Assembly: GCA_015179025.1 (NCBI GenBank)
Contig: WHUX01000035.1
Span: forward strand, 248,001-312,000
DNA: 64,000 bases
Source: Terfezia claveryi
Taxonomy: Eukaryota; Ascomycota; Pezizomycetes; Pezizales; Pezizaceae
Direction of reading: 5' to 3'
Below the pieces are notes generated by a model. The model did no database searches, had not been told where the DNA came from, and saw only the letters and a list, made by a program, of their open reading frames with translations. Below, one piece after another: positions 1 through 47,949 of this stretch. Both the position numbers and the translations under genes were made by a program. The stretch's first letter is position 1. Each line of letters begins with the position of its first letter.

Positions 1-474
1 CAGAACATTATAGATCTTACTTATTATTGTAGCGAGACTGGAAATATGCCTTCCGATATGCTTCTTTCCTTTGATTTGAGATTTTACTGCCCTGCCCGCA
101 AAATTTTGTTATATCGGACGCTAGTCTAAACCGGACAGGATCCTGGGGATTTATGCAGTCTACGAGGGTGTTGTGCCAACCAGACTATTATGCAGTCCGG
201 TTCAGCAAGTTGTGACTAAAGGGTCATGACTAGTATAGAGATTGGTATAGTGTTGTATTCCCAAGCAGCATGCCAAGATTTATAGTCCGCCACAATAGTT
301 ATTCCAAGTTGCTAATTATACAAGTACTTGTACATTATGTAGTCTTGTACGAAATCACACTAGTTAAGTGGCACAACCGATCCTAGCCCTTCTGCAGATC
401 TGGCGCAAACCTCCGAGCACCAAGCATCTGTCAAGCTGCATCGTGCAGGCCCTTCTTATCACCAGCTCTTCCCC
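1..474. other. intergenic, left edge of window
   Basis: No coding frame with recognisable similarity is seen. The stretch holds one micro-insertion (160-187, listed separately) and would contain the promoter of the NHX1-type gene that starts at 475. Confidence 0.5.
160..187 (+). mobile_element. 28-bp micro-insertion, TAGTCTGGTTGG family
   Basis: The insert ends in GTTGTGCCAACCAGACTA and is preceded by GAGG. It is flanked by an exact 9-bp direct repeat TTATGCAGT at 151-159 and 188-196; one further C also matches. Only one transposon end is present, so this looks like an excision footprint or a terminally truncated copy rather than a self-mobile unit. Confidence 0.75.
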
Positions 475-2749
475 ATGCTGTCGTTTGCAACTGATTTACT
501 GTCCGGCCTGCTTAGTGCGTGTAACTAACCATCTATTACGTATTTGTGGAGTTTGCACTGACTGGATCTACAGAGCGAGAAGCAGAGGACCCTGATACAC
601 AAGGTTATATCCTACTGTGGTGCCCCTCCGCAATCTAGCTCTCTAGAAAGCTAATAATGAGTTTCTCCTGTAGAACCAAGCAATCCTGAGAAGGAAATAT
701 TCTCATCATGGGCACTCTTTATCCTAGTTGCCCTGCTTATAGCAGCGCTGTTCACAAGTTATTACCTACAACTGAAGAAAATTCAGGCAGTGCATGAAAC
801 CGTTATATCTATTTTTGCTGGTGTGTTTCCCAACCAGGTGAACCATAGGGGCAAAGATCTAAAATAGCCATGCTATAGGCATGTTCGTGGGCCTGGTTAT
901 TCGAGCCACAGGTTTAAAATACATCCAAGACCTTATGAAGTTCGATTATCAGTTCTTCTTCAACCTACTATTACCACCCATTATATTGAATTCAGGGTAT
1001 GAGCTGCATCAGGTGTGTTATGACTGAAGTTGAAACGAAGTTCTAGGCGTTCGATGACTGACCGTACAAGGCGAACTTCTTTCGAAATATTGGCACCATC
1101 TTGACTTTTGCATTCGCTGGAACTTTTATCTCAGCCATAGTTGTTGGGTATGTATCACCCTAAATCAATTTATCAACTCGTGGGTGCCCGCTTACAGATT
1201 TTAGGGTTCTACTGTTTGTGTGGTCGCTACTACATTTAGATGGCCTTAGTATCTCCTTCGTCGAGGCCATCTGCGTGGGTGCTACTCTATCAGCTACAGA
1301 CCCAGTCACTATTCTTGCGATATTCAACACCTACAAAGTTGACCCCAAGCTTTATACAGTTATCTTTGGGGAGAGCATCCTCAACGATGCAGTAGCAATT
1401 GTCATGTTCGAAACAGCCCAACAATTTCATGGACATGCACATGTTGGAAGTTTCTTCAAGGGTATTGGTATATTCTTTATTGTTTTCATGGCATCACTTC
1501 TGATTGGTGTATTCGTTGGGATTGCTACTGCCTTGCTATTAAAACACACCTATATACGAAGATTCCCTAGGATCGAATCTTGTATAGTTCTCTTGGTTGC
1601 CTATGCATCCTATTTCTTTTCCAATGGATGTCGTATGTCTGGTAAGTTGTATATCTGATTATCACACGTCATCTCTTATACTGAAACGTGGTTAGGAATC
1701 GTCTCACTGCTCTTTTGTGGAATAACCCTCAAACACTACGCCTATTACAACATGTCTCGGCGCACCCAACTCACGACTAAATACATCTTTCAGGTCCTAG
1801 CACAACTATCTGAGAATTTTATTTTCATTTATCTGGGTTTGTCATTGTTCACAGATAATGAGCTTCGCTTCAAGCCGCTATTCATTATCATGACTACTGT
1901 TGCAATCTGTATTGCTCGATGGGTTGCTGTTTTCCCATTGTCGAAGCTCATCAATGCAACGATTGCATTCCGAGCTAAAAGGCGAGGAAGAACAGTGACG
2001 GAAGAACTACCTCATGCTTACCAGGCTATGCTATTTTGGGCTGGGCTTCGTGGCGCCGTAGGGGTGGCTCTGGCTGCCAGCTTGACGGGGAAGAATGCGC
2101 CCGCCCTACGAATGACGATTTTGGTGGTCGTCGTATTGACAGTGATTGTGTTTGGGGGGACAACTGCTCGCATGCTCGAGATTCTTGGAATCCGAACGGG
2201 TGTGGTTGAAGAAATCGACAGCGACGACGAATTTGATATCGAGGCACCAACGCCCTACCACAAGCGTCCAGGATATGTAGACGGTTCCATGCAGTTGGGC
2301 TCGGTCGGGGCAAGTGGAACTGTATATAGTACGCAATCAACACTAACGCCTATCGACCGCCCGGAATCGAGAACATCTAGGAGATCGAGTCCCTTGACCG
2401 GCAGTCTTCAACGCAGCACAGCTTCCCAACACCCTCATCGAGCCAAGATATGACAGCTCCTTCTGAATACGATAGCGATAGCGAACTACCTCCCATGGCG
2501 CCGATGCCACGGGCAAAGAGCTTAGATAGGTCAAGGTCAGAACCGTCTGAGGGAGGCGACGTGGGCGTTGGTAGTAGCACATTCGGAGCCTCGCTTTCAG
2601 CGGGAAGTGCAATTAGCCAATTGACAGGACTTCTATCAAGCACTACAGATGATCATGCAGAATGGTTCAGGCAGCTGGATGAGGGCTATATAAAACCCCG
2701 GCTACTTCTCAACAGCAAAGGGCATGGAAATGGAGGAGGGCCTGCGTGA
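475..2749 (+). CDS. NHX1: endosomal/vacuolar Na+/H+ exchanger, NHX1 type
   Basis: Multi-pass antiporter exchanging luminal H+ for Na+ or K+ in endosomes and prevacuoles. Model: join(475..514, 574..603, 674..820, 879..1012, 1071..1147, 1205..1641, 1696..2321, 2381..2749), 619 aa, open across all seven junctions. Visible motifs are the first transmembrane segment (SSWALFILVALLIAALF), the family signature FFFNLLLPPIILNSGYELH in exon 4, DPVTILAIF, and the transport core FGESILNDAVAIV in exon 6. The cytosolic tail is Ser-rich and ends near WFRQLDEGYIKPRLL, as in fungal NHX1 homologues. The last intron (2322-2380) has GTATAT and ACTAAC and restores the frame to the conserved tail. The first two exons are the least certain: the ATG at 475 was chosen because a 59-nt intron 515-573 joins it in frame. 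The N-terminal leader is short. The core assignment is firm. Confidence 0.9.
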
Positions 2750-3459
2750 TGAATCAAGGTGGTGGTATGGGCTTTTAGTTTGCATTCATTGGTATCGGTT
2801 TGGGCGGATCTGGAGTAAATGTTTCCCAAAAGTTTCTTTGGTGGTGTGCTTAAGTAATGCTGAGTAGATGACTTGACATTAGATATAGATCATACATACT
2901 TATAGTCTGGTTAGCACAACACCCTCCACATGTTGTGCCAATCAGACTAACATACTTAGGTATTCGGCCATATTTTATCATGCTCGAGCCTTTGTTAATG
3001 CGAATTCTTGAGAGGCATCGAGGCTTGAACGAAATAATTAATATAAAAACCTGTCGTCCTCTTTCCAATTCACTCTGAGGTGAAGTCATAATACCTCAGT
3101 CATGGGGCCATTATCAATTTCAAAGCCGACAGACTTTGGAAATTTTTTTTAGTGGATGCTGACGGTCAGGTAGCAGATGCGGTTTGTCGTCACAAGAATG
3201 TGGCGTTACTGAATGAGGTCTGAATTTACGCCACGTCGTGTAACAAACTTACCCTCAAACCCTTTATCAAACTTCACCTCAGACACCATTTTCACCGGTT
3301 GATTTCAAACATCACTCCTATCTGCTCCTCAGAGTAGGACATTTAAACAAGCCAACGAAGTAAAATTCTACTTACTGTACTCCCGTTTTCCCAGGGATCT
3401 ACAGTGTTATTGATGATTTTGGTGACCTCATGAGAGTGAGATGCAATTTAATGCTTGCA
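2750..3459. other. intergenic, NHX1 3' flank
   Basis: Apart from the 47-bp palindromic insertion at 2903-2949, nothing is recognisable. The right part (about 3240-3459) may be decayed retrotransposon sequence continuing from the reverse transcriptase relic, but no frame holds. Confidence 0.4.
2903..2949. mobile_element. 47-bp two-ended palindromic micro-element
   Basis: Both ends are present as 19-bp inverted repeats (2903-2921 and 2931-2949, 17 of 19 matching) around a 9-bp centre. The left end reads TAGTCTGGTTAGCACAACA. It is flanked by an exact 9-bp direct repeat ACATACTTA at 2894-2902 and 2950-2958. This is the most complete member of the family in the window and shows that its two termini are inverted. 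The two arm mismatches are both transitions. Confidence 0.85.
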
Positions 3460-4282
3460 CACTGCCTGGATCCATCTGAATGCCTTCTGCTGAAATGATC
3501 ATGCCTAAGTAGTGGACCTTTGTCTTATGGAATTCGCATTTTTCTGGTTTTAGATATAGACCAGCATTTTGAAGTGCATCGAGGACCTTGGTAACATGAG
3601 TTCGGTGTTCTTCCAGTGTATTACTATAGATTAAGATATCGTCAAGATAGGCAGTACAGAAGTTGTCCAGAAAAGGGTGAAGGACATCATTAATGAAGTG
3701 TTGGAAGCTGACAGGAGCATTGGTAAGGCCGAAGGGTATAACTAAAGATTCATATAGTCCGTATCATGTTCTAAATGCCGTTTTCCATTCTTCACCTGCA
3801 GCTATTCGAACTAGATTGTAGGCGGTTCGAATATCGAGAGTAGTGTAGTATTTGGCTTTTGAAAGTTGGTGGAGAGTTTCACGAATAAGGGGTAATAGGT
3901 ATCGATTTTTGATGGTGCTTTCATTGAGTCCTCGATAATCAACACATAGACGTAGAGATCCATCCTTTTTCTTTACGAATAAAATTGGTGCACCAGCTGG
4001 AGATGAAGATGCACGAATAAACCCTTTTGACAAGTTTTCTTCCAACCATGTCTTAAGAGCTTGTAGTTCGAATTTTGATAGGGAGTAAAGAGGACCGAAT
4101 GGAGGGGTAAATCCTTCCTTAAGAGGGATCTTGTGATCATAGGGTCGATGAGGAGGGAGAACTTCAGCTACTGCTTTTTGGAAGAGTTGGAGGTATTGAT
4201 GGTATTCAGGTGGTACAAGTTTCTTAATCTTTTCCCCTTCAGTTATTGGTTGTTCGTCAGTAGATAGAATTCGAAGTAACAA
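3460..4282 (-). pseudogene. Ty3/gypsy reverse transcriptase fragment, broken
   Basis: The minus strand encodes the N-terminal part of a Ty3/gypsy reverse transcriptase: [44 protein letters not shown] and [19 protein letters not shown]. The frame stops at 3764-3766 with TGA where the family normally has Arg; one C-to-T change would explain it. The same frame then continues with PFGLTNAP and the catalytic YLDD box (about 3634-3645) and fades near 3460. No protease, RNase H or integrase domain and no LTR is recognisable. I infer an old, inactive copy that RIP may have hit. Confidence 0.9.
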
Positions 4283-6017
4283 GAGATTTCAAGGATGCAT
4301 CTAAAAGCCGTTACAAGAGCGCTGAAAGCTATTCTTTTCCCGCCTTCGTATGTGCACATATCCCCCGTCAGCTGATGACGTTTTACTCTGCGGAAATTTG
4401 GAGGAGTCTCCAATCGCACTGCTGTGAGTTTTTTCGAGAACACTTCGGAAAAGGGGTGCTGGACAATTTGGATAATATACTTCAAATATGAGATAAATGA
4501 ATATATGGTAAGTTAACACTGTTATGGGATTGGTCTAGTTCCAGGCAGTCAGTTGAGTCCAATAAAAGAACAAACCATACATACCAATCTTCCCTACGGT
4601 CTTAGGCTGGCATTGCCCCTGCTTCTTTTGATATATGTGACGTTGCTGCCCGCTGGACTCGGATTCCCTACCTACCGTACTACGCCTCCCCTCTGGTATG
4701 CACACGACAAACCCTTTAGCCTATGATTTTGAGTTTCAGTCAAGACCTGCCGGAAACAGTGGCAACGGAGCCGCGCAGGGTCACAAAATGCCACGTTCAT
4801 GCACGATGCATGAAGATGGTGTAGAACACCACGCGAATGAGAAGCAAGGTGGTGTATCCTCCTGTCAACGGCAAGTGGGAAATCTCCGGAAAGGGAAGGC
4901 TAAAGCCGATGGCGCCCCAACATCAGAGGCTTCGTCAATTACGGTTGAGACGGAAGTAAGAGTGGAGTAGAAGGAATGGTATTTAAAAAGGTAGATTTAT
5001 CACCGTAACTGACTTTCAGATTCCTGTTTCGTCTGGTTGAAGCTTGGTACTGTTAGTTATGGTTTGTGAGTTGCTTCTGTCATGTATGTATGCTGCGCTG
5101 TCCCGTGTGTATATGCGGTTACCCTGAAGTGTCAGGTCAGACCTGCAGAAGTTCTTTCATCTGTTGTTCTCATTTAACAAGTAGCTTGTTCATCCCATTT
5201 CACTACTCTCATAATAGAAAGTTTAAACATTTCAAACTCACTTTTTTTTTCCCTTTTGTTCTTAGTTACTCACCTTAATCAATCTCTAGACTTTGTTTTG
5301 TTGCTAACTACAGTTCGTGTCCATTTATGTCCAGACATTTAACAAAATCACAGCGATAATCGGCAAAAGCGAGTTTTTTCAAGAAGAATACAAAAAATAA
5401 ATAGTTCTTGATCTGAATTAGCATCCACACTCGAATTACCAAATACATTGTTTAGGAGATGCCTTACTTCCCAAAGCCCTGATCCCAAGTGGTGTTTAAA
5501 GAAACGAAATTTTGCCAAGACCACACCAAAATTAAATTAATCAGCTTGCCATCATTAATACTCCTCTTCATGTTGAGAGGAATAGGCTGATTTCAGGTCC
5601 AACAACAGCTTTTGATCAGTCTGTGAAAGTTTCAGGCTAATTACTTTTCGTTCAGAGTTAAGTAATATGGGTTGCAACTAGGTCAGTGTTGTGGAGACTT
5701 CTGGAGCCTTGCTGTAGTTCGGCAAGTAGCAACTTCTCTCTGAGGCACGGCCAGGGCTATATTTCTGATAGAAAAATGTTTCCGTCGTTACTATATATTT
5801 ATTGATTAACACCGACACTATATACTTCTCTCTCTATCATCAAAAAGCCAGCTTAAGTATCTGTCTTAATTTTTATCCATGATAGCTCCTATGCCAGTAA
5901 AGAAGAAGACTGTTTATATCAGCAGTCCTCGGCCTAGTTGCTGAAACACTAAGAGTCCGGGATTAGGTAGACGCGTTCCGTTTTGGCTCCGTCAGCCTCT
6001 ACGTAAATCACCGAGGG

Positions 6018-6034
6018 GTTGTGCAACCAGACTA
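6018..6034 (+). mobile_element. transposon-end fragment, same family
   Basis: GTTGTGCAACCAGACTA, preceded by CGAGGG, matches the right end of the micro-element family with one base missing. The flanks CGTAAATCA and AGTAAACCC agree at only 6 of 9 positions, so a target duplication is not convincing. Confidence 0.5.
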
Positions 6035-6124
6035 AGTAAACCCCTTGTCTCCTCCAAAAGTAGATAGAAGCATTAATCTGGTATAGAAGATACCACATTG
6101 CCCATTGCCTAAAAGAAAGTAGGG

Positions 6125-6141
6125 GTCGTGCCAACCAGACT
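6125..6141 (+). mobile_element. transposon-end fragment, same family
   Basis: A right-end copy reading GTCGTGCCAACCAGACT with the following A, 90 bp from a similar fragment upstream and 65 bp from one downstream. No flanking direct repeat was found. Confidence 0.5.
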
Positions 6142-6204
6142 ATCTATCCATTGACTTTGGTGGGCACGAAAGAGCGGATTCATCGTTCCAACACCCCACT
6201 CCTA

Positions 6205-6235
6205 CCTCTCCGAGGGTGTTGTGCCAACCAGACTA
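6205..6235 (+). mobile_element. 31-bp micro-insertion, TAGTCTGGTTGG family
   Basis: The insert ends with GAGGGTGTTGTGCCAACC followed by AGACTA. It is flanked by an exact 9-bp direct repeat CCACTCCTA (6196-6204 and 6236-6244). Only the right terminus is present. It shares 25 contiguous bases ending in ACTA, apart from the outermost base, with the copy at 160-187. Confidence 0.8.
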
Positions 6236-6837
6236 CCACTCCTAGGCGCAGACCAGTACTGAGTTTTTTTTTATTATTTTTTTTTAAAAAAACTCGGAAC
6301 CGCAGAGCCGCCCACAGAGGCTCAATTTGTATGCATTTTACCTAGGCTGCTCACCCAACTTCATCTCCTGTTGATGAGTTTAGGGTGGTGTGACTCACCT
6401 GAGATCAGGGTAACCCAAACTATATTCTGAAGCCAAATTCAAACTTAGCATGCATAACGTTACGTGTCCTTTTTTGAGAAAGTCGAATGTACGTACATAC
6501 ATACTGTAGAGCAAGATGCAAGTCTATCATCTAGGCCATATAATGCAGCACACCGGCCATGGCCATACTCGATAATATAGAGCAGAACAAGCTATCTTCA
6601 ATCCCCGACACTAACATCATGCAGATCATTCCCTCCTTGATTTCTCCAAACTCTTTCTTACCATATAATCAGAATTCTAGTTGTAGAGGTACAGAAAACC
6701 CCTTTCCGGCATCGTAATGGAACGATTCATGCACAACACGCAAAACAACTCCCCTTTTCTCCATTCTATGTTCATCCTACTCCCAAATACCCTCCTTCCC
6801 AAACCTCCCCCCCACACCATCACCCCAACTCCCCTAG

Positions 6838-7447: not shown

Positions 7448-10400
7448 CGTTGGGCCTTGAGATACTATAGTTATTTCCCTCTGATGCTGTCTTTTTCTTC
7501 CCTCCTCACTTCTAAGTAATTGATTTACTAATGCCGGTAGAGAATCAGCAAGAGTTCCTCGCTGTGGCGGGTGCTACCACGTGACAAGGCACTTCTGCAT
7601 CACGTGCTACAGGGTATGTTCTCGTTCACCAATTCCTGATCATCACACAGATTTTTATAGTTACATCATGGTCTATGGTAGTGCCAACCAGACTAGGTCT
7701 ATGGGTCGCATAGGAGTACTGAGTATACAAAAATTAAAATAAAAAAAATGGTCTATATACGGTATCTCATACCTACCGTATATACAGTAGGTGCCGCCTA
7801 GGAAGTACACAGTTAGCCTGCTGGTATCAGTGGAGGTAATCCCGTCTATATAATATTAAACTGCTGCTTCCATGGATATTGGGGCGATGACACAACGTGA
7901 AATTCGAGTCTGCTGACTCACCATCTGCGCTAGTAGTCGTATTTGCATGTACTTTGAGTTGAGGACTGTTGGTTACTGCATTGGGCTAGCCTATGTATAG
8001 AGCTGTAAATACAAGTAAGAGCACATCCACAGGGTCCACAGGGCCTAAGATCTCCTGTTCTACATAACATACATAGACTATTGAGATATATATGGGTATA
8101 TAAGTTTTTTTCAGTTGATCCGATAGCTACTGTGCTCGCCCTCCCCCGACATGTTTTTGGGTTTATCTAGGAGCTGCAAATGTAAGTTACTGAAGGCACC
8201 TTCTCGAGCTTGCATATATAAGCCGCCCACTGCTAGAACTCCCTGTAGCTTCGGGAGGAGCCTATAATCAAAGACCCCGAGAAAATCATTTGGTCGCCAA
8301 CGACAATACCGTCATCTTTCTTAGCTCTCCGGTCTCTTTTCATGTACAAGGTGGTCAGCTGGGGATGAAGGTTAGAGGACGCTGACAGCCTGTGGAGGTA
8401 TATGATTTTGATAGAGGTCGGAGGAGGCCGGAGGTAGTGGTTTCGGCTTCAGATTTAGGTTGGTGATTTGGGTCTTTTATAGTTCTTTACGTTGGCGATA
8501 CAGTTCGAGCGCGGGTAAGACTACAAAAAAAAAATTAATAATAAAAAACTGTTGGTGTGAGGCGGAAGGTGAAGGGATTTACCATGTGGATTTAATTGTG
8601 AGGACCAATGTGAGTACATTTTGGTAAATATGTAATAACTCACCTTTTCACTCACCTACTCACATTTGATAGCTCATCCATCGAGTCGTATATTGATGCG
8701 TTTATTGATTATGGCTCACATATCAACTACTTTAATACCTTTACATTAGTATACTCACATCCAATGCAATTCACCTATTTTACTCGCTCCCATATAGTAT
8801 GTGTACCAAAGTGAAGGTTAGAGCAGGCCCTCCCAGAGGTGGTGGTGATTCCGGAGAAGCGTTGTAGATATTACAATGTGGTGGTCGATCCTCATAGTTG
8901 AATACCCTATCTATGACTTGATGTTATGCTCATTGTATCTTCATGAAAGGTATAAACAAACGGAAGTGCATCATTACCATACTGCAAACCCAAAATGTAA
9001 GAAGCCATGATGCCAATCTCTGCGGACACTCTGCACCACCGTACTCTCTTGTTTGAGCTCAGTAAACCAGTCATTATATTGGCTGACAAATTTGATGAGG
9101 GTTGGCCATATGCCGACTCCGTTTATACAAATCTCGCAATAGAGGTACTTCAATGCAAAGGTATAATACGAGTCCAGAAATATGAGAGTCAATAGCAGTG
9201 TTTGAGATAAGCAATTATGTCATGTACGAATTAAGGTCTTTCGGCTCAGCAGTGACAATTGAACTCCTCAAATGATTATACCCATACCCACATTATTGAG
9301 GAGAGCTTCCGTATCAAAAAACCAAGTATATTGTTAAGGGACATCAAATCCGAAGTTGCCAGAAATTCAGAGCAGTTCGGATTTACCATGCCATACGTGA
9401 GCTCGGTGGTTCGTCCTTAAAACGGTTAGTATTATCTGAAAGAATTCGTTATTTCGTATGAGAGAGAGAAGTGTATATTCGTATACAAAGAATGAAAGAA
9501 GCCACTCGCTTGATTACAACAGTAGAAAATAAGGAGATCCTCCGCCCTTTTAATACCCTGATCCTGAACACCCGATTCCTCAGCCTCGTCATTCATTCCG
9601 TATCAGCCCACTCCATATCGGCTTATCCTGCCGTCAGGTTATCTAGCCTTATCACATTATCCCAGTTTCAACATTATCTAGCTCATGGAGATACACAGCA
9701 TGATATAATAGATGGGAATAGCCAAGATATCGTGAATTTAAAGCGGGGGATGAGATCATCAGACCTACGGTGGCAAGCTATTCCAAGATGTTGCTCTTCA
9801 AGCATGTAGCCTCTTAACAAAGCGGGGATGGCTTAATGATATTTGCAGAGTGTGGTATGGAGGTATGAGATTATGGGTACTGTTTGGGTTGAAGAAGAGA
9901 GCAGTGGACAGAATACTAGAAGGATGAACAGGCTCTATCCAATATACGAGTTAATGGATCAGCTTCACTTGGAGGACACGGTATAAGTCAGAAAGTGGAG
10001 CAATGGGTAAATCGTATATAAACAACAATAGGTAGTCTGACAAGCTTGCGTGCCGAAAATATTGCAAGTAGTAATCGATCATGGGAGTTGTAATATTGAC
10101 TCTTATTCTCTGCATTCATATTCAGAATAGCTACCTGAAATATGCTTCACTTAGGACTGAGACACGTAGTTATGACATTAGCTAAATATATCAATATTAA
10201 AATCATCTCTAAGCTTATATAAATATAGCTAGTAAGTCATGACCAGCAGTTGCTAATGAAGTTTTCTGTGGTAACACAGGACCTCATCGAGCTCAATTTC
10301 ATGTCACAGCAACGCCACCTGAAAATCATATCAAGGTACCCAAAGTACATCATTATTATGACTAAACGGTTTAACAATAGAGAAAACAGTTTATTCATGT

Positions 10401-17818: not shown

Positions 17819-19477
17819 TGACTTTGTGTGGCCTGCTGTTCGAATAGTAGTAGTAGGTTGTTTATGTGATTGTAGCTGTGGTGGTGTGCAGGGTGATGGG
17901 GGTGGTGATGGGAGTGGGACTGATGTCGATGAGGAATGTGCCTGTAAAGCTACCTCTGCTGCTTTATATTTTGAAACTTGTCAGCAACCGCAAGTACCGG
18001 TACCCAAAATGTGCATGCCCCACCCCAGATCGGAGTGATGGCCGAGTGTAGGTATCTATCGGTCGCTACCCAACTTATTCCTTAGACTGATAGATTCCAA
18101 CAGATCAAATTCCGGCTCTTATTGAAAGCAACACCATGGCAGCAGAAATTTGAACCAACGGAGGGAGGCGGGGTATTATACTTCTCAAGCACCTAATACC
18201 AGACGTAGAACTACAACTAGCCAAACGCAACAGACGATAACACAACCTTGACGTTGGTAACGTTTTGAGTTGGATATAGCAACTGGGTATTGTTTTATCA
18301 AATCAATTCAATATACAAACCAATCCCACTATCAATCCCTCTTCATCTATCTCGTAAGCAGAAGCAGGCAGGTAAGTGGTAAGTCTCGTCAGAAGCGGGC
18401 TAAAGTCCCAGAGCGTGTGATGTGAGGTGTGGAGAGGAATGAGGTGAGATGAGGTCAAGACCGGAAAACCCAAAATAATAATAATAAAAATAAGGGTATG
18501 ATTGAAACTCGTCAGTTTGTGTAGTGAGGAGTAGGTATTATGTATGTAGGTCAGAAGAGTGTAACCGCATGCGCTCTAATTGAAAAAACTGCACGTAAGT
18601 AGGTCACAGCCGTAGGAGGATGGGTTTCGAGATAACGATAAGCCAGCAGAAGAAACAAAAGTGCACAATATCACCTAAATAACTCCAGAGTAACACGATT
18701 CAGTCGGTTGGGAGCCCCTGAAATTGCTTATTTCCTTCGGCTCCTACTTAGTTACTCAACCAAAATTCAGGAACGGGACAGGGTTGACTAGTTTCTTCGT
18801 TCAACGGCGCTAACCAACGACAACAACTTGAAAGTTGCCCTCTATCAAGTGCAAAATACCTTCAATCAGCACACAAAGTTCTTGTTCCTTGGGTTCCCCC
18901 CTCTTCACCCAATCCAATGAGCATCCCAATCCCAGGTATGCATTCACACCCTCTCCATTCCATCAAGTTTCCCACATCAAGATGCCATCACCCAACCATG
19001 AACATCTCTCAGTTATCGTAGCGTTAAAAGCTGAAAACAATCTCCATCCCCAGAGCCCAATTTACCAGTTCACCAATTCCATCTACCACACCAGATTTTC
19101 CCAATCCCAATTTGTTGGGTTCAGATGGTCCCTTCCTCCTGACATCTGTTGAGCTGCCAAGACCCCATCCTCACCTCCCGAGCTATCCTGCACCTCAACG
19201 TCAACCCTCATCAATATGCAATTTCCACGTCAAGTTGTTGATCTCATCGATCATCTTGACCGTTAACATTTGCGGAGGAGGTATTTACAGACCCTAGACA
19301 AAGCTCTTCACAACACCCTGGATACATCGCAAAAGTGTCCTCGCATAATTACAATTACCTTGAGGATTTGAGGGTGCTTTTTTTGAATTGAGTTTTGAGC
19401 TTGATATGAAGCTCCTAAGTCCAAGTAGTTTTAACTGGATGGCTACTCTGGTGAATTTTTTGAAACTGAAAAGTTGG

Positions 19478-19499
19478 TAGTCTCGTGCCAACAAGACTA
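19478..19499 (+). mobile_element. 22-bp two-ended micro-insertion
   Basis: The insert starts TAGTCT, ends AGACTA and contains GTGCCAAC between them, so both family ends are present in reduced form. The flanks AAAAGTTGG (19469-19477) and AAAAGTTGT (19500-19508) match at 8 of 9 positions. Confidence 0.75.
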
Positions 19500-19636
19500 A
19501 AAAGTTGTGGAAAATACGCTATTCCCCATACAATTTAGCGCGTTTTTGGAAATGGATTCAACCTGCTGTATCTGTCCAAGCTTTGCACCTGGCTGCAAAA
19601 ATCAGAAAAGAGATTATATACTCTTCTCTTTAAATT

Positions 19637-20114: not shown

Positions 20115-20158
20115 GGAACAACGTGTAAAGTATGTACTCTACATAAGCGTCTAGTCTA

Positions 20159-23348: not shown

Positions 23349-23366
23349 GGGGGGTTGTGCCAACCA
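23349..23366 (+). mobile_element. transposon-end fragment inside the palindromic element
   Basis: GTTGTGCCAACCAGACTA, preceded by a G run, is a right-end fragment of the micro-insertion family. It lies in the unpaired spacer between the arms at 22605-23110 and 23690-24240. No flanking duplication was found. Confidence 0.55.
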
Positions 23367-23689
23367 GACTAGTCTAGCAGCAATATAGTCTCGTCTACAT
23401 AGAATATAGGTGCTGTTATTACAAGTTGAGTTTATATTCCGGTTATCTGTAAGTCTTGTTAAATAGACTCGGACCCTACTACCAATATTCTATTTGACTT
23501 TTGATCTAGGAACCCCGATGTATGGGAATACAATATGAAATAGATAGCCGTTTGTAATTTGTTCATATCTCACATATCACATCACATCGATTATCCACTT
23601 CAATATTACAATTTAAGTAATCCTCCCGTTTTCCCAATCTAGTAATTTTATTTAGTGTATGCCAAGCTTACTACAAGTAACAAGCTAGC

Positions 23690-26120: not shown

Positions 26121-26184
26121 GAGCTTCAGTCGTCGAGCTTCAATCGTCGAGCTTTAGTTGTCGAGCTTCAGTCGACGAGCTTCG
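26121..26184 (+). repeat. 14-bp tandem repeat
   Basis: About 4.5 copies of GAGCTTCAGTCGTC with a few substitutions. Confidence 0.85.
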
Positions 26185-35754: not shown

Positions 35755-38017
35755 CTTGATCAATGTATAGCGTATAGAGTTATCGTAAGTGGGGGGTGAA
35801 GCGTGGTGGGTTGATGGTTATCGAAGTGGAGCTCAAAGGGTAAATCTGAGGTTCTGAGATGATAAAAGAGAAAGCTTCCTTATAAAGGCACATGTTCGCA
35901 GAAGGCCTCCCACTAAAGTAGACAAGACTACCCGATACAGCATGTGACCTGTCGACTGCATTTGATATTCTAGCCCGTAAGGGTGGTCTCGCTACAGGCG
36001 ATGTGATCTGTCTCATGCCCCAACGGTCAGGGGGACTTTGGTTGGTCAACTAAGATAAGGGAACATGAGCAGTAATGAGTTCTGTAGATAATCAGGTTCA
36101 AGATGTCAGATTAAAGAGAGTAAGTGGAATTGCGAATGCAGCAGGCAATAGAAGCCTATCGGTCAGATCTGATAGGATGAACGCAAGCAGCAAGCACAAC
36201 TTTTTTGCAATTTCTAAGAACTTGCACGCAAAGCTACCTTCAATAACCCCTATTTGGCCTTATAACCTCGGTACAATATCCCCTTCATGAACTTCCAAAA
36301 GGGCCATGTTTGCGTGGATACTAAGGGAACGCACTCATCTCTCAAACCAGCCCACACATAGTGGTGGCGGCCCCACATACATATGCTCGTGAGTAATGGC
36401 GGCCCCACATGACAACATATAAACGTACTCATGAAGCACGCATGTACGTATGCTCATGAACATTCGTCAATCGCTTTTCGTTAGTTTGGTTGGCTTTTCG
36501 TTATATATATACTTGACTCTCAAGGAATTCGTGGTCAAGCAATTCATACGATTGAATACATATTAGGCTATGACTACATAAACATATACCCATCTATCCT
36601 TGTGTATGCTGTTTATACGGCATCGTCTTAAGCCGAGATAGTGTTCCGCTCCTGGGCTCGGTGAAAGATCACACAACCTTCGAATTGTAGTAATAGAAAT
36701 TGTATTGCTCAATATCTATCCTAAGAATTTAATAATGATCCTTATTGCATAGGGTTGTAGTGGAGTCTTGCTCAAAGCCGGTTGCTGGGTTCCTCTAGAT
36801 AAAGGTGTTCAAGGGGTGTAAAGAAATCATGTGTCGATTTAAAAATCAATGTATCACCAAACCAAACCAAAGTCTTTTTAAATATACTTGTTCCCCTCCA
36901 AAATGGTGTTTTGCTTCCTTCAGATTAGTTTTGGAACTCAATCCATGTAGACGGAATTCTCACCGCAATATAAAATTGTATAGTCCTAGTAACAAAGGCA
37001 AAACCTGCCATTACTCAATTGGATGGGAGTGGAAGCTTTGCCCCACACGTAGCTCTACGTGAGCCGGCGTAGTTGAACAATAGGGGTTCGTTTACAGTGA
37101 CTTGAAACGGCAGAAGTGAGGTTCACAATTCTGGAGACAATGTTGGTTATACGCTGATCTAAAGGTAGATTCTAGTCAATTCATGATGCAAAATCCAGAT
37201 TACTATCGGTTGCTAGATAAACAAGATATGATTCCAAAGCTGGAACCTTGAATTTACTATAGATTCAAAAGGGAGTGCGAAAAGTGCATGCTAGAGTTAT
37301 AGTATTCCAACATAATGTCGAATCCGGACAGCAGAGGACCCTTTTCGATAAAATAATACGCATAAATCAGAAGTTGACACGAAGTAAAGGTTGTCAAGAT
37401 TTCGTGATGCAGTTCCGCCGGATATGCGCTTTTATCAGATGCACAGTCATATAGTCTCAACACCGAACTTTCCGGAGAGGCTATACGTCGTAGGGTTGTA
37501 CTACAAGCTACTTATCTACTTACTACCTACAAGGTAACTGAGGTTGACGACGATGTGGTCACCCTGATTTGGCAACGATCACTACTCGGGCAAAGATCAT
37601 AGTCGTATTAAAGGTTATAGAAAAAAAGGAGTCTCGATCCCTGGAGCGGTCGCTAAGAAAGACACTTATGTCAAAAGGCAAAACGAGTTACCCCAGTTCA
37701 CTATACTCCGAGCGCCATCACACTACTTCTTAGGTCGCCCTCGTTGTAGACTTGTGGTTTGGTGGAGATATAGTGAACTGGAGCATTAAGGAATGGATAC
37801 CCGACAACCCTGCTCCCGGTCCGCCGACAGTGATATTAAGGCAATTAACTTCTTGCCTCCACTGGGAATCGAACTCGGGCCCTCAATAAATAAACATAAA
37901 CCGTAAAGTAAAGAACTTACCACTGCGCTATGCCTACTGTCAGTTTCAAACACTATAGTGCTATATTCTGCTAAAACTCGTTACTTTTTCCACTTGCCAA
38001 TTCAATTGTAGAGACAG
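35755..38017. other. intergenic, 2.3 kb
   Basis: No gene recognised. Contains an inverted repeat CCAGTTCACTATA (about 37693-37706) with its inverse near 37769-37783, and a degenerate tRNA-like sequence (37853-37937). Confidence 0.5.
37853..37937 (-). other. degenerate tRNA-like sequence (SINE head or pseudo-tRNA)
   Basis: The minus strand reads GCATAGCGCAGTGGTAAG (A-box) and GAGTTCGATTCCCA (B-box) with tRNA-like spacing. The acceptor ends do not pair and the T-stem pairs poorly, so a functional tRNA is unlikely. Confidence 0.45.
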
Positions 38018-38082
38018 GCGCATAGAGATAGGAAACATACAGCGCATAGAGACAGGAAACATACAGCGACAGGAAACATACA
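38018..38082 (+). repeat. 24-bp tandem repeat
   Basis: Two full copies and one shortened copy of GCGCATAGAGACAGGAAACA plus TACA, directly before the 29-bp minisatellite. Confidence 0.85.
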
Positions 38083-38090
38083 GTAGCATG

Positions 38091-39117
38091 GATATTTGCT
38101 CGCTCTATATGCCAGCCTAGATATTTGCTCGCCCTATATGCCAGCTTGGATATTTGCTCGTTCTACATGCCAGGATATTCGTTCGCTCTATATATCGGCC
38201 TGGATATTCACTCGCTCTACATGTCAGCCTGAATATTCGCTTGCTCTATATGTTAGCCTGGATATTCGCTCGCTCAATATGCCTGCCTGGATATTCGCTC
38301 GCCCCATATATCAGCCTGGATATTTGCTCGCCCCATATATCAGCCTGGATATTTGCTCGCCCCAGATATCAGCCTGGATATTTGCTGGCCCTAGATATTA
38401 GCCTGGATAACCCCCTCCGGTGAGCCTGCATATTCCCCCTATATCAGCCTGGATATTTGCTCGCTCTATATGCCAGCCTGGATATTTGCTCGCTCTATAT
38501 GCCAGCCTAGATATTCGCTCGCCCTGGATATCAGCCTGGATATTAGCTCGCCCTGGATATCAGCCTGCATATTCGCTCGCCCTAGATATTAGCCTGGATA
38601 TTCGCTCGCTCCATATGCCAGCCTGAATATTCGCTCGCTCTATATGTTAGCCTGGATATTCGCTCGCACATGTTAGCCTGGATATTCGCTCGCTCTATAT
38701 GTTAGCCTGGATATTCGCTCGCTCTACATGTCAGCCTGGATATTCGCTCGCCCTGGATATCAGCCTATATATTTGCTCGACCTAGATATCAGCCTGGATA
38801 TTTGCTCGCTCTATATGTCAGCCTGAATATTCGCTCGCCTAATATGTCAGCCTGGATATTCGCTCGCCCTATATGTCAGCCTGGATATTCGCTTGCCCTA
38901 TATGTCAGCTTGGATATTTGCTCGCTCTAGATATCAGCCTGGATAACCGCCTCCGGTGAGCCTGGATATTCCCCCTATATCTCGCTGGATATTCGCTCGC
39001 CATGGATATCAGCCTGGATATTCGCTCGCTCCATATGCCAACCTGAATATTCGCTCGCGCTGGATATCAGCCTGGATATTCGCTTGCCCTATATGTCAGC
39101 CGGGATATTCGATTGCC
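38091..39117 (+). repeat. 29-bp minisatellite, about 35 copies
   Basis: The unit is of the form GATATTCGCTCGCTCTATAT plus GTCAGCCTG, degenerate between copies. Because 29 is not a multiple of three and the unit lacks stops, long frames appear in rotation; these are not genes. A variant block with AACC(C/G)CCTCCGGTGAGCCTG occurs at about 38408 and 38944, roughly 535 bp apart, showing a higher-order duplication. Confidence 0.95.
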
Positions 39118-39246
39118 GGTACAATGCGGGTGGATGTGGCTAATTAGCAAGAAGAATGGGTGTGCAAAGCCCGTAGATGTGGGTAATAAGGCAGAATAAG
39201 GGAGCATGTGTGGAGCGCTAGTATGTGTGTAATTGGGGTGATATGC

Positions 39247-39381
39247 GGGTGATTGGGGTGAACAATGGGGTGATGGGGATGAACAATGGTTTGGGCAAAG
39301 TGGTAATTGGGGTGAACAATGGGGTGATTGGGATGAACAATGGTTTGGGCAAAGCGGTAATTGGGGTGAACAATGGGGTGA
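39247..39381 (+). repeat. 54-bp tandem repeat, about 2.5 copies
   Basis: The unit contains AATTGGGGTGAACAATGGGG and GGGATGAACAATGGTTTGGG. The length is a multiple of three, giving a spurious repetitive frame (39225-39890). Confidence 0.9.
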
Positions 39382-39385
39382 CAGG

Positions 39386-41334: not shown

Positions 41335-42642
41335 TTACGAAATCTTCTTCATTCTCCTCCCCCCAATCTGCAGCTTCGAATCTACCCTACACAAACAAGT
41401 TAGCATCCCATCCCAGTGCGTTCAATCCAATTCCTCATATCTCCCAATACATCACATACCTCGAAACATCCTGATCCACAGCATTCAAAATAACAATTTG
41501 CTCGTCCAACTCCTGATGAATAGCCTGGCCAATTTCCCTTTGCCTAACCACCGTCTTGAGCATACTTTCCAAATCCTGGTCCTGGTCTTTTAAAAATTGT
41601 TTTTGCAATTGTAAGACCCCGTCGTTATCTAGCTCTCTAGTTCTCTCCGTTTCCGGTAGCGGTGCCCCTAGTACTCTCCTCCCCCCGCCAGTACTTCCGC
41701 CTCCATTCCTGGCCCCACCAAAGAGATTCGCTTTATCTGCTGCGGTTGCATTGGGAGTGGTGCTTGTTGCGTTGGACCGTTTAGACGCAAGACTGTTTGC
41801 CAGTGATTCGAGTGCCTCACGCTCTTTTCTTGCTGAAGCAAGGAGGTCCTTCCTTCTTCTGATCTCTCCTTCACCAAGATCGCTCGCCCCGTTACCAGAC
41901 CCATTGCTCCCTCTTTTTGCGGCCGTGGGCGCTGATACCTCAGCCATAACCTTCAGTCCACTCTCTAACGCCGTTAAGATACCCCCGGCTTTTACTATAC
42001 ACCTTTTCGCCCCAGCAGCACTCTCGTGCTGCTCTGCCGGACTCACCGCCTGGTCCCGCTTACTCAAGAACAACCTTGCGTCGTGTAGTAATGCTTTGAG
42101 TTCCCTATGGACGTCCAGCCACAACCCGGCATCAGTCACAGGCTGCCCTGTGCTTGCTATAGCCGCAATTCCTCCAGCACCGCTCGCAGCCCCGATTGAG
42201 CCTTTTCCCTTAGAACTGCTCGACGACCCGGCAGACCAGGAAGGTGGGAGGTTGAGGAATTGTCTCCAGACGGAGGAGTTCCGCCAGCGAGGATCGGGGG
42301 ACTCGAGGATGGATTGGAGGTAGCGCTCGAGAGCTTGTCTGCGGTCTTCAGTGAGGGAGGGGGATGTGATGGTGCGGGGCCAGTATGACTTGGGGGGGAA
42401 GGAAGAGGGTGGTGGGATGCTGGCATGGGTGGTGAGAGTTTGGTGGAAGTTGAGGAGCTCGGAATACCGTTTTGAGAGGGTATGTTCGCGGAGGGGAAGG
42501 CGGACGCTATATGTGGGCCGCAAGGAGTTAGCTATGGACGTGGAGCAGTAAGGGGAGTGGCGTACAGAATGTTGTAGACAGTATAAGGCTTGTCGGTGGT
42601 GTCTATTATGGAAGCAGTGGGGATGCTGAGCTTGAGAGACAT
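41335..42642 (-). CDS. VAM7: vacuolar SNARE VAM7 (PX domain plus Qc SNARE)
   Basis: Soluble Qc-SNARE recruited to PI3P on the vacuole for homotypic and endosome-vacuole fusion. Model: complement(join(41335..41386, 41460..42506, 42566..42642)), 391 aa, open at both junctions. N-terminal PX domain, about residues 1-115: MSLKLSIPTASI, KPYTVYNI, then VRLPLREHTLSKRYSELL (the RYS lipid-contact motif) and PPKSYW. A Ser/Gly/Ala-rich linker follows. The C-terminal SNARE helix is at about 323-387: LQLQKQFLKDQDQDLESML with the zero-layer Gln region and ending GGRRMKKIS. There is no transmembrane anchor, as expected for Vam7. The first intron's AGCTAACTC branch supports the start. Confidence 0.93.
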
Positions 42643-43102
42643 GTTGGGGCGCAAGTGATTCTTCAGGCTCTTTGGTCTAGTTCGCAGCCGGCTTTCTTCT
42701 CAGGCTTCTCTCTTGAGATATAACAGACCCTTTAATTCGATGCTTGGGATTAATTGGGACTACCTAGCTGTTTATTGTGCATCGCAGCAAGGGGAGTAGC
42801 GCAAGCGCTTATGCGTAATGAAGCTGGGCGAGCCAGGACTTGCATGACGCAGGTGTTGGCTTGGCAAGGTGCATGAGTAGCAGCCAACGGCGACGCACTT
42901 TTGATCTCCCTGCGTATAGTAGCAGTTTTCATTCTGCAGAAGTCTCGGGGTATACCTACGGTTTGTTCGTTATCAGCCCACAGGCCTTTTGTATTTGGAA
43001 AACACCACGAACGCTATTCCCAAGTTCTTCGCTAACAGTTACGAGCATCTAGCTCCAATTTGGCCTAACTACCCCACCCCCTACTGCCATGTTCCCACAT
43101 GC
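42643..43102. promoter_or_regulatory. 460-bp divergent intergenic region
   Basis: Lies between the ATG of VAM7 (-) and the ATG of the 346-aa gene (+), so it must hold both promoters. No specific site is claimed. Confidence 0.5.
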
Positions 43103-44143
43103 ATGAGCTCCTCAAGCATGCGATCCGGCTCCGGTAGGACCTCGCCGTCAGAACTCGGCACCGGCACCAGCATTGACCCGCAGACAATCCCGAGGCGAGA
43201 CCATGGAGAAAGCCTGGAGAAGCCACAGCCAAACGGCACCTACGATACCGGAGAATCCAGCGGGGGCGATGCTCGAGGGGGGTCTGGTTGGGTCGACGCC
43301 GACGGGAGTGATGATGGTCCAGCACCAGCTTCTTCTTCAGCTGTCAGCAGTAGCACTGTTAGCGGTAGTAATGGTACCTCTCCCACTGGCAATGGAGTTG
43401 ATCCCGTGAGACGTACTCGACAACGCGGCCGCTCGCTCCGAAAAAACGTCCTACTGCGCACGCGGGGCGTACTCATGTCCAACCTAACCACCAATGTCCT
43501 CGGGATTATCACTCCCGGGATGGTCCTTGGAGCAGAACACCATTCCCCTAATACCCATATACACCCGACGAATAACAACTTACTCCCATCTTCACCTACA
43601 GTCATCACTACCCACCACGCCGACGACGAAGCAGACCACAGCAGCAGCACAAGCAGCATCACCAGCAGCATCACCAGCACTTCTCGCCCCCTTCCGCCCA
43701 AACCGACTGATGCCATCGACAACGGCTACTGCAACCCCAGCCCTTCTCCCTCCTTCCCAGCATCTTTCATTGACCTTCCCTGGCCCCCACTCACTCCACG
43801 AGACTCCATTGACCCCCTCGCCGATACTGTCTGGTGGGGATACTTTATCCTCCTTAGCACATGGCTAATATTCGTCATTGGCATGGGCAACGTTCTCAGC
43901 GTGTGGGGATGGGCTTGGGATGTACCCAGTGATCATCCAATTCCCATCCTAAGCTTTTTACAAAATGACGGAAATAGGATTCTGGGCGGGGAGGATGATA
44001 ATGAGGACTTCCCGATTCAGGGTTATTATCCGGTGTTGATGATTTTGACCAGTGTGGTTGCCTGGGTGTGGGTTATTGTGGCATGGGTGGGGATGAAGTA
44101 TTTCAAGCATGCGAAGATTCAGCCGCAGAGTGATGATTCCTAA
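43103..44143 (+). CDS. conserved-looking fungal two-TM protein, unknown function
   Basis: 346 aa from the first in-frame ATG (MSSSSMRSGSGRTSP); the frame is open further upstream but has no ATG. The first 240 residues are disordered and Ser/Gly/Pro-rich with a basic patch (RRTRQRGRSLRKNVLLRTRG). The C-terminal 106 residues look like the folded part: DTVWWGYFILLSTWLIFVIG with GMGNVLSVWGWAWDV (TM1, about 243-266), a variable loop, then GYYPVLMILTSVVAWVWVIV and AWVGMKYFKHAK (TM2, about 309-331). I have the impression of having seen this Trp-rich pair in other fungal hypothetical proteins but cannot name a family. The stop codon TAA overlaps the target duplication of the following transposon. Confidence 0.82.
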   Translation: MSSSSMRSGSGRTSPSELGTGTSIDPQTIPRRDHGESLEKPQPNGTYDTGESSGGDARGGSGWVDADGSDDGPAPASSSAVSSSTVSGSNGTSPTGNGVDPVRRTRQRGRSLRKNVLLRTRGVLMSNLTTNVLGIITPGMVLGAEHHSPNTHIHPTNNNLLPSSPTVITTHHADDEADHSSSTSSITSSITSTSRPLPPKPTDAIDNGYCNPSPSPSFPASFIDLPWPPLTPRDSIDPLADTVWWGYFILLSTWLIFVIGMGNVLSVWGWAWDVPSDHPIPILSFLQNDGNRILGGEDDNEDFPIQGYYPVLMILTSVVAWVWVIVAWVGMKYFKHAKIQPQSDDS

Positions 44144-44149
44144 TATTGT

Positions 44150-45119
44150 ATATGTTCTGGGCCGCTCGCGGGCGGCATACTCACTGTGCCGCTCACGGGC
44201 AATTTAAATAATTAGTCAATTTGGTGTATAATGCACTTGTATTGATAAAGGTTTACGAGTACTGATTTACCTCAAAAAAAAAGGAATTGATAACGATATA
44301 CCTAGCTGGAGCTATCCCAGCGACTGCAATAGATTCATGTATTCCCCAGTCGATTAGACCTCCATCTAATATTCAGCTAGAGTTGAAGGTTAATACAGTC
44401 ATGATCTGTTAACACTTTTGTATGTCAATAAATTGGGAATTTCAGTTTATTCTTAGAGTATCGGCAATAACAATTAGAGTAGAAGTCTTTGCAAACACCT
44501 GAAACAAAAACACAAGTAGTTATACTTAGCAATCTGTGTAAAAATAAGTACCTGCGATTAAGAAAGTACAGTTTTGCACCTTACCTGAATCCTATAAGTA
44601 TAGCTAGGATTTTTCTTATATGATAAATCGTGCAACAAGATGTAGACTAAAAATATTATAATAATGATTATTCCGAACTCCACTGAATTCCACATAGCGC
44701 ATCGATATTCAGTACAAGATGGTCTATATAGCCTGAACCATAAGGCCCCATATATTAAAAACTCCATAGATAAGAACCCGTAGATAAGAAACTAATTTTC
44801 AAATACATATTGCATAGGAAACGTTGCAGATTTCTATGGTAGCAATAAACTCAGTATCCTCCTCTCCATTCCATTCATCATCAGAGATGAAGGTGATGAG
44901 TTGTTAACTACGCAAGCATGTACTTCATCATTTGAAGGGCTTGAGGTAATCTTTCTGGAATTCTCCCCTTGTTCAATGTCTGCCGTCTCCCTGTGATGTG
45001 GAAGGGGTGGTCAAAAATGACCTCACAGGGTGTTTTTTGAGTGTAGCAGAATGTTTTGGTCAATTCACAGTTACCAAATTGAGGAATTATATTAATTGCC
45101 TGCGAGCGGCCCAGAACAT
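44150..45119. mobile_element. roughly 970-bp hAT-like TIR element next to a stop codon
   Basis: The ends are inverted: ATGTTCTGGGCCGCTCGC at 44152-44169 and its reverse complement at 45102-45119, followed by alignable sequence to CAATTTGG on both sides. The left end has an extra internal duplication GCCGCTC(G/A)CGGGC (44163-44200). Flanks ATATTGT (44143-44149) and ATATTGT (45120-45126) form a 7-bp duplication (7 to 8 bp would fit hAT). Two bases next to the left flank are unexplained, so the exact border is uncertain. No transposase is seen. Confidence 0.65.
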
Positions 45120-46523
45120 ATATTGTGCAGACTGAAAGATAGAAATGGAGGTCAACGATGAGAGAGTTGAACTTTATAGATAACGAGATATCTCTGTGTT
45201 TTTTTCTTCTTAAGCTCTTGATTGGGTGTAGATAGGTGAGTAGAAATTTACATGATATTTGTTTTTGCTCCTCCTCCGCCACAGCCAAGTGTTTGCATTA
45301 CTCATGAAAATATGGTGGTTATGATAGGGACTTTGTGCCTCCTAGAGTTGAATGATTTCTGGCAGAATTAGGCTGTCTATGGGTGGTTGGTAGTCCATAG
45401 GAGATTCCGAGCTTCCGAGCTGTCCTTTACCTTACTGTTGATGAAGCCAAAAATCTCATAAAGTTGCAAGTCTGAAGTCATAGAATGTATATTCTCTTAT
45501 GCGTATAGTATGAATATGCATACCGAGTTCCCCCCCAAAAATATTCCCGTAGTTAATTCTTCTACAACTTCTTCGATTACGACTATACTCCCCACTACCA
45601 TTGGTCCAACATTGAGCTCAGGCTGCACTTTAAGAATCTTTCCCTTGGACTCTCCTGATACCATTCGCTCTACTTATAGCCGACCCCATTGATTTCCGTG
45701 CTGCCTTTTTTTACATGCAAAACAGAAGAACTTGGTCAAGTGATATTGGGGATAGAGGCCGTTGGTAAGGTTTTTTGCCAAGCGATTATTGTAAAATAGT
45801 ATGGAACATAAAGGGCATGGATTTGGATGAGGCAGGCTAGGGGGGTGAGTGAGAGCTTTGTAGCTCATAAATAAGAGTAAATGCATATCAACAAGGAATT
45901 CCATTTCTTGGAAATGGTCGCAAGCATAGGTGCAATATAATAGATCTGTAATGAAAGTTCTTATGGTCGATTTGCGTAATAAGACCGCGAGTTTGGGAGG
46001 AGAGCTGAACTGTATGTTGCCTTTAGCCCAACGTTGCATAGTTAGTATGGAATAATTGAGGTCGCTTGTATAGTCTAGCTTTTAAATTTCGCTTAAACCT
46101 ATGATTCATCACATAATTCCAAATGGTACTTTGGAACTAACTAATAAATAATATAATTTTCAATGGTGCGGCGAGTTCACGGCTCACCTCTGTTAAGGTA
46201 CTTATTAGTCTGAGCGCTAACCAGACTTAACACTGCGGCGTTAGACTGTATATGTATTCAAACTAAGGTAGTGGGTAATGAGTCTGGGTAATGAGGGGAG
46301 GGAGGATACAATAGTCTGGTTAGGGGAAGAGGGGGGAATTTTTTTTTTTTTTTTTTTTTTGTAAAAAAACTCTTTGGTACTCGTATGCACTCATCCTTCG
46401 GGAGCTACCCGCAATTCAAAGGTCAAGTGAGTAATCTGCCGCTAGCACGTGCTATATACATGGTATAAGTGTGTCGGTGAAGAATTAGAGAAGGGGAGGG
46501 GGAGGAGGATGAGGAGATTCAAT

Positions 46524-46537
46524 TAGTCTGGTTGGCA
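46524..46537 (-). mobile_element. 14-bp micro-insertion, left end only
   Basis: TAGTCTGGTTGGCA is the outermost left end of the family, lying between AGATTCAAT (46515-46523) and GGATTCAAT (46538-46546), which agree at 8 of 9 positions. It is the mirror-image case of the right-end-only insert at 6205-6235. Confidence 0.65.
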
Positions 46538-47949
46538 GGATTCAATCCTCAATAAGGAATCTGATTAGAGTATAATCTCAGCTAGTAGTAGTCAGGGATC
46601 TCAGTAACTTTATCCTTCACTATCATGTTACGGCGCCAAGCCGAATTCGGAATTCGGAGTTACCCTGAATCTACATGACCGTAGAACTTTCAGACATTAT
46701 TCTTTTCTTTTTCAGGGGGAAAGAGCTGGAAAAAAAAATGCATACTTTTACTTATAAAATCATGCTTACCGAAGCCAGAGTCAGAGTACAATATGGACAA
46801 TTGTCCATGTGCGCTGTAAGATGGTACGTTGTACAAAGTGACGCACACATTATCTGCGAGTTTGCAGTGTGCAACTATGTGACTTAACCGGTAAGGAGCA
46901 GACTTTTCTGCATAATTTCTGCAAAACACGGGTACCTCTCTATCGATCTTGCCCAAACAGGTAGATGCCGGGATGCAAGAAAATGTGTGAGGCGTGACAA
47001 GATGTGAACCGGTTTGAGGGCAAAAGTAAAGTTCCAGCTGTTGTTTGAACAATTGGGAAAGCTGTCATTATTAGTTCGCGAGGCTGTGTGAGTGAATGGG
47101 CCCTTGTCTTCGGAACTCCTTCAGTGGGTACCCACCCGCCGTGCCATCTTCTGCCCCAGTCGTGTTTCTCAATACGCTTTCCAAGTCGAAGAATGGCGGT
47201 CTGTAAGATTTTCTCACTAATATTTGAGGCCAAAATATTTTTATGCCCTAGAGCACCTGGAGGCCGCTATAGCCCTGGTGTGTACTGATGTCTGAGAAGC
47301 TGGCCACACCCTGCACCTGCTTTATACAACCTATAGTATTTGGGGGTGGATTTCATGTCGAGGCATGTACTGGTTGTAGGTGCCAGTATCAAAATCAGAT
47401 AGCTGCGTGCCCCAGCATGCCGCCGTCTACAGACATCTTATAGAATATATATTAGCATAAATTCGCGGACTAGTTGGAGATGAAACTTTGGAGTGCAACA
47501 GTTCGAGTTGGACTATTCATGAGCATGCAGAGGAGCTGGGTGGGCAAGCAACACCCTGAGTACAAATATCATATTGAGTGTGCAACTTTGAGGCCTGCGG
47601 GTGGGAATGTGCGTGGGAAAGAGTTGATCTTGTGGGACAAGGATTGGGACAGAACAAAAGCAACGTTGTTGGAATAGAAAAAGAGATTTAATCGTATGCG
47701 TTGATTGTTGGACAAAGGGCTTTATATAACCATTCGAAGGATAAGAGGAAGGGAGGGATGAACATATGTTAGATGTGGATAAAAGGAGATGGTGAGGAGG
47801 AAAAGTGAATAACTAGTATGGAGTGGATTCAGGCGGTCTTGTAGGATGGGTGGTTGGAAAGGGATTTAGAAAGCTTAGGATTCACTGATTTTGAAATAAG
47901 CAAGTTGATTTTAATAAATAACTTAGATCTATATTCAGAGGCGATATAT

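Follow-up and report, generated by a model that had tools for sequence, protein, structure and literature searches.

Among described DNA transposons, the P element and the Mutator-like elements (MULEs) offer the nearest points of comparison for a family of short inserts found in a stretch of the Terfezia claveryi genome (GenBank assembly GCA_015179025.1, contig WHUX01000035.1, positions 248,001 to 312,000; the whole 64,000-nt stretch is called the window below). For the P element, the part of one account used here describes 3′ extensions of 17 nt at the ends of the transposon, duplications of 8 bp and a donor that is repaired by end joining or homologous recombination (PMC7776569); it follows from such a stagger that a donor flank keeps matching bases of the element. 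MULEs, according to the sections of a second paper drawn on here, typically have 9-bp duplications and terminal inverted repeats (TIRs) of more than 100 bp, and excision of the MULE Muta1 is mostly precise when repeats flank it and gives mainly 1–4-bp deletions when none do (PMC5225508). The excerpted portion of a genome-scale record of DNA transposon excision in rice reports that, among 94 excisions, just 8 preserved the two repeats and nothing else, while 43 lost flanking sequence and 58 gained filler (PMC4423477), and the portion cited of a fungal paper describes the excision footprints of DNA transposons as almost undetectable (PMC10691877). A thin check of the literature, covering titles and the openings of abstracts, returned no published description of a scar system of the kind reported here.

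The T. claveryi inserts are probably scars left by the excision of large cut-and-paste TIR transposons, members of one family whose insertion duplicates 9 bp of the target. A preliminary description of the window had already proposed excision footprints of such a transposon, and the proposal is supported by flanking 9-mers that match far more often than chance, by paralogous copies of the sites that are empty and by the presence of long two-ended copies. The six inserts that it listed were recovered by base-level reading, with direct repeats that are exact in four cases and agree at 8 of 9 positions in two. Those with exact repeats are a 28-bp scar at 160–187 (151–196 with its repeats, reverse strand; ttatgcagt), a 47-bp two-ended scar at 2903–2949 (2894–2958, no strand assigned; acatactta), a 31-bp scar at 6205–6235 (6196–6244, reverse strand; ccactccta) and a 17-bp scar at 7679–7695 (7670–7704, reverse strand; ggtctatgg). 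The first keeps 28 nt of a single end, of the subfamily ...ACCCTCGTAG, and the identical 28-nt insert recurs at four other loci (L086, L097, L107 and L123) with different 9-bp repeats; the last consists of 15 nt of one end and a 4-nt crumb of the other, 2 nt being common to both. The imperfect repeat pairs, aaaagttgg/aaaagttgt and agattcaat/ggattcaat, belong to a degraded two-ended 22-bp scar at 19478–19499 (19469–19508, no strand assigned) and a 14-bp scar at 46524–46537 (46515–46546, forward strand). A probable seventh scar, absent from the preliminary description, is the 11-bp TAGTTTGGTTG at 36482–36492 (36473–36501, forward strand), which lies between exact copies of GCTTTTCGT.

A search of the whole fungal assembly (72.56 Mb, 794 contigs) returned thousands of matches to the end sequence. 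The 18-base end TAGTCTGGTTGGCACAAC has 3,260 matches at no more than two mismatches, against 1 for the reversed control, and the related end subfamily TAGTCTGGCTTGCACTAGCCCCTC has 311, against 0 for its control.

Repetition of the flanking 9-mers is far beyond what chance would give. In a sample of 145 ends (at most one mismatch to the end), which leaves out L006, L007 and L069–L077, in which longer end patterns served to select 40 of the loci and a two-ended insert may be counted from either end and hence twice, 73 ends have exact 9-bp repeats and 91 have repeats at no more than one mismatch; 200 shuffles of the upstream 9-mers gave means of 0.85 exact and 3.27 near-exact repeats (maxima 4 and 8). 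Outside the pattern-picked loci, a repeat at no more than one mismatch accompanies 55/86 exact 18-mer ends. In a 280-kb sample made up of the window and 26 loci selected for an 18-mer match, the exact 9-mer is found again within 3–120 bases at 54/122 TAGTCTGG sites, while six permuted seeds of TAGTCTGG, with 5–13 sites each, gave 0 repeats for every one. The repeat length in these 280 kb steps at nine (36/78 ends for k=9, 11 for k=10), the exact 9-mer of those 36 ends recurring within 10–150 bases as against 0–1 recurrences for 9-mers at least 3 bases farther out. A sequence-blind scan of inserts between exact 9-bp repeats (401 entries, with both orientations counted and repeats longer than nine entering in several registers) returned TAG as the top first triplet with 79 counts, the next two triplets having 24 each. 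The base preference of the duplication is weak and symmetric, T being rare at position 1 (8/71) and A at position 9 (7/71). We rejected chance similarity as an explanation, given the single reversed-control match to the end, the empty permuted seeds and the shuffle mean of 3.27 against 91. Whereas the rice excisions, in the portion of the record cited above, mostly lose flank or add filler, the 91 ends here keep both 9-bp copies and the inserts are element ends; likewise, excision of Muta1 is described in the cited sections as mostly precise, whereas the scars here keep an element end.

Relative to empty paralogous copies within this same single genome, the inserts are insertions. For L002 and L011, the joined flanks align through the junction of the empty copy with no gap there (85/108 and 75/84 identical columns). 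The joined flanks of the window scar at 19478 match 13 other genome places, three of which (on C457, C455 and C323) match at 55/55 bases across the junction and a further five of which match one base shorter. One of the three 55/55 places, L105, was read directly as an unfilled copy of the host repeat of this scar.

The genome also holds long copies with two inverted ends. The end followed by the inner motif GTCTGG is present at 13 places at no more than two mismatches; since one of these, on C773 (L078), is itself a 34-bp scar between GTACCAATA repeats, there are at most 12 long ends. Two complete elements carry exact 9-bp duplications. The first, at C656:44243–56804 (12,562 bp), has GGTTGTGTG at both flanks and TIRs of 355 bp that are 99.7% identical, one end terminating in CCA rather than CTA; the second, at C95:50819–67651 (16,833 bp), has ATGGAATGC at both flanks and TIRs of 113 bp that are 94.7% identical. 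Apart from the CCA triplet, both start and finish alike and run past a small hairpin (by eye, a stem of 5–7 bp and a loop of about 3 bases) into GTCTGG. On C300 there is one long end; the far end of that element was not located. Two marks of a cut-and-paste TIR transposon are present, namely TIRs on the complete copies and a fixed 9-bp duplication on elements and scars alike.

Comparison of scars with long ends revealed a sharp edge at this inner motif. Exact copies of family A number 85 as a 28-mer, 53 as a 30-mer and 24 as a 33-mer, and only 1 continues into GTCTGG. Where a short copy could be placed in a family whose long end is known, it reaches GTCTGG at most, save for one copy that goes 1 nt past it. 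A set of 59 scars have their repeat within 75 nt and match any of the five known long ends over 24 nt or more; none of these oversteps the border by more than 1 nt. Two features go further than the earlier proposal of variable ends left behind: the retained ends are not freely variable, as they stop at a fixed inner motif, and most inserts between exact repeats run straight into the second 9-bp copy. A 12-nt seed yielded 72 unique inserts of this exact-repeat kind; 57 of them keep less than 3 nt of the second end, with lengths of 12–15 nt (7 inserts), 24–36 nt (48) or more (2) and none of 16–23 nt. The remaining 15 finish in at least three outermost bases of the second end, where about one would be expected at 1 in 64; these crumbs (CTA, GACTA, CAGACTA) are the outermost bases of the opposite end. 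Counted over the 91 repeat-flanked ends, the residue of the other end is 0 nt in 53, 1 nt in 16 and at least 2 nt in 22 (at least 3 nt in 19 of these).

These counts bear on whether the inserts might be very short autonomous or trans-mobilised units of about 28–33 bp that jump as such. Identical copies do recur, the 28-nt ...CCCTCGTAG five times and the 33-nt ...CACAGGAGG nine times (two of the nine inside one duplicated locus), as such units would. However, the 57 one-ended inserts offer a transposase no second end, the crumbs at the far junction indicate a longer parent, and the 12.6- and 16.8-kb elements, with matching ends and 9-bp duplications, provide one. Extremely short mobile units, the alternative raised in the preliminary description, are weakened on all three counts and are highly improbable. 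Nor do the inserts behave as miniature inverted-repeat transposable elements (MITEs), that is, as internal-deletion derivatives of a long element that arose by aborted gap repair and later moved. The palindromic two-ended forms of 41–54 bp look like minimal MITEs, but a MITE is a mobile non-autonomous copy with two ends, and most of the inserts, including the 57 that keep less than 3 nt of the second, have lost one and would be incapable of transposing by themselves. There is also no run of intermediate sizes: in 41 pairs of opposite ends at least 60 bp apart and within a single locus, the flanking repeats agree only in L054 and L061, two loci that hold copies of one duplicated pair of adjacent scars. 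This derivation is the least probable of those considered and hardly credible.

The sharp length limit of the excision scars suggests how the transposon cuts itself out. The transposase would free the 3′ ends exactly at the element border and cut the 5′ strand about 31–34 nt inside the end, just before the inner GTCTGG, so that a long single-stranded 3′ tail, made of element sequence, would remain on each donor flank. In the usual course of end joining, one of the two tails would be ligated to the recessed 5′ end on the far side of the break, while its counterpart would be clipped as a flap exactly at the border; after fill-in, the scar would have one end and measure at most about 33 bp. In fewer cases, trimming and joining of both tails would produce two-ended scars of 17–54 bp. 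A long 3′ tail at each flank would account for the maximum near 33 nt, the clean opposite flank and the lack of microhomology at one-ended joins. Instead of this stagger, or in addition to it, the hairpin ahead of the inner motif may stop an exonuclease.

The same edge could be produced by abortive insertion, in which the transposase releases end fragments of about 33 bp by cutting at the inner motif and then places these, singly or in pairs, into new sites, with host repair fusing the broken target, so that short ends come to lie between 9-bp duplications without a full element ever having been present. This predicts an equal maximum length and 9-bp duplications, and it fits both the large excess of short over long copies and the exact one-ended joins without microhomology. 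It nevertheless requires an unusual double-strand cut inside the element, and removal of a flap would yield one-ended inserts that keep a perfect second repeat more readily than this route does; moreover, the cut-and-paste elements that are known give scars by excision. We consider abortive insertion unlikely.

The coding content of the complete elements points to a candidate transposase for the proposed excision. Both C656 and C95 contain a nested Gypsy retrotransposon (reverse transcriptase, RNase H, integrase and chromodomain), and a 4.5-kb interior common to the two, tried as the transposase region, was rejected on account of its nested Gypsy domains. In C95 the Gypsy copy (520-bp repeats, 95%) sits between pieces of a helicase gene. 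C656, C95 and C300 all carry a copy of one Gypsy family, that on C300 being recognised by about 80% DNA similarity. Outside the Gypsy sequences, the helicase C-terminal regions of C656 and C95 are related (46% over 150 aa), and each element encodes a protein of about 400 aa, the two being related at 21–28% in three pieces. The Pfam matches of the helicase are DEAD and Helicase_C only; we read it as RecQ-like, and it could help repair or replication. C95 further encodes DUF6589, a Pfam family of unknown function that is named in no paper of the literature searched, and on C300 a DUF6589 match is found some 8 kb inward of the long end. Genome-wide there are 43 DUF6589 matches in 22 loci, among them an 815-codon frame on C235 with two stops and the acidic motifs LDNVN and VGGDQ, which we would guess to hold catalytic residues. 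Searches of PDB sequences with two DUF6589 pieces gave no match, a permissive Pfam scan of the DUF6589 pieces gave no second transposase family, and the 20 open reading frames (ORFs) tested from C656 and C95 gave solely DUF6589, helicase and nested Gypsy domains. The DUF6589 protein is a candidate transposase and may act as such in the excision outlined above.

How this putative system relates to the described ones can be set out part by part. Like the P element and THAP9, it would be a cut-and-paste system whose staggered cut, within the inverted repeat, is unusually long; yet the P element stagger is 17 nt and that suggested here about 31–34 nt, twice as long, and the duplication is 9 bp rather than the 8 bp of the P superfamily. 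Further differences from the P element are TIRs of 113–355 bp, DUF6589 as the candidate transposase and an element that, once nested DNA is subtracted, measures about 8 kb (C95, judged by where its nested repeats lie). The Pfam profile for the P-type RNase H (PF21787) had no match in the genome and was also silent in every control genome. With MULEs, the elements share the 9-bp duplication, which falls within 8–10 bp, and long TIRs. Origin by a MULE transposase was rejected, as 0/21 MULE domain matches in the genome lie within 20 kb of the places where the end runs into GTCTGG, and none of the 20 tested ORFs contains a MULE transposase domain. We tentatively propose an undescribed superfamily, with a DUF6589 transposase and a RecQ-like helicase, that would cut the 5′ strand about 31–34 nt inside a hairpin-bearing end at a repeated GTCTGG and leave, at each departure, a one-ended scar with both 9-bp copies intact; thousands of departures, each with its orientation, would be archived in this one genome, where very few elements survive. 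The proposal as a whole falls a little short of an even chance.

Several observations weigh against excision scarring, or against the details of the proposed mechanism. Excision is inferred from the sequence of one genome. At 54/145 ends there is no 9-bp repeat at one mismatch or fewer, for which age, loss of flank or nested matches may be the explanation. The contrast between at most 12 long ends and thousands of scars is a large imbalance. At five of the 13 places that match the flanks of the scar at 19478, the match exceeds the query by 7–10 bases. Patterns of 27 or 30 bases were used to choose 40 of the loci, which biases the length sample to long retention; a scan by seed only returned more scars of 10–15 nt and a few of 17–25 nt. 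Microhomology is weak, with an overlap of at least 2 nt in 7/15 two-ended scars against 25% of simulated blunt joins, and the overlap at one-ended junctions is not in excess (mean 0.56 against 0.44; 82/500 shuffles as high). Extra or nested sequence, not predicted by the simple model, is present in three inserts, of 46, 58 and 64 bp (L096, L092 and L120). Finally, 2/22 DUF6589 loci lie within 20 kb of a long end, against 0.13 expected (p about 0.008), in a test that was designed after both its cases were known, and C656 has no DUF6589 match despite its nearly identical TIRs.

Excision scars are usually too small or scrambled to read, whereas those described here are long enough for subfamily, orientation and retained end to be recognised; the history of a transposon could therefore be counted from its departures instead of from its surviving copies. 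With so sharp an edge, it also becomes directly testable where an uncharacterised transposase cleaves, and the finding hints at a role for DUF6589.

Some loci show more elaborate arrangements. At L013:8877–8942, a 19-mer consisting of gattccctc and TAGTCTGGTT occurs three times in tandem and is closed by a fourth gattccctc; here a scar has turned into a small tandem array. L054 (C46:14051–14120) and L061 (C120:56200–56269) share one unit of two adjacent scars of different subfamilies, which alternate with three copies of the 9-mer gggaatctt. The spacing of both ends is repeated at C277:23735–23804 and C300:34700–34769, so this target probably took two hits before it was duplicated. L010, L014, L021 and L076 hold inserts, flanked by 9-bp repeats, that open with TAGTCTCG or TAGTCTCATGCC; they include CAGACCC or AGACCC, matching part of the inner motif in reverse complement, and may be an additional type of end within this superfamily.

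Further end-like matches in the window, among them those at 6125–6142 and 23354–23371, lack a repeat. The latter, an end-like 18-mer on the reverse strand without a detectable repeat, lies in duplicated DNA, as its end and flank recur at C10:84998–85133 (L103). The ACC, Sec16 and PIG-Y genes mark the genome as that of a fungus, and the ACC protein has PDB entries 5i6h/5i6i (Chaetomium) as its best structural match and 5csk (yeast) as the next, which suggests a filamentous ascomycete. The window also contains, at 38021–39117, a short tandem repeat array with units of about 29 bases or multiples thereof.

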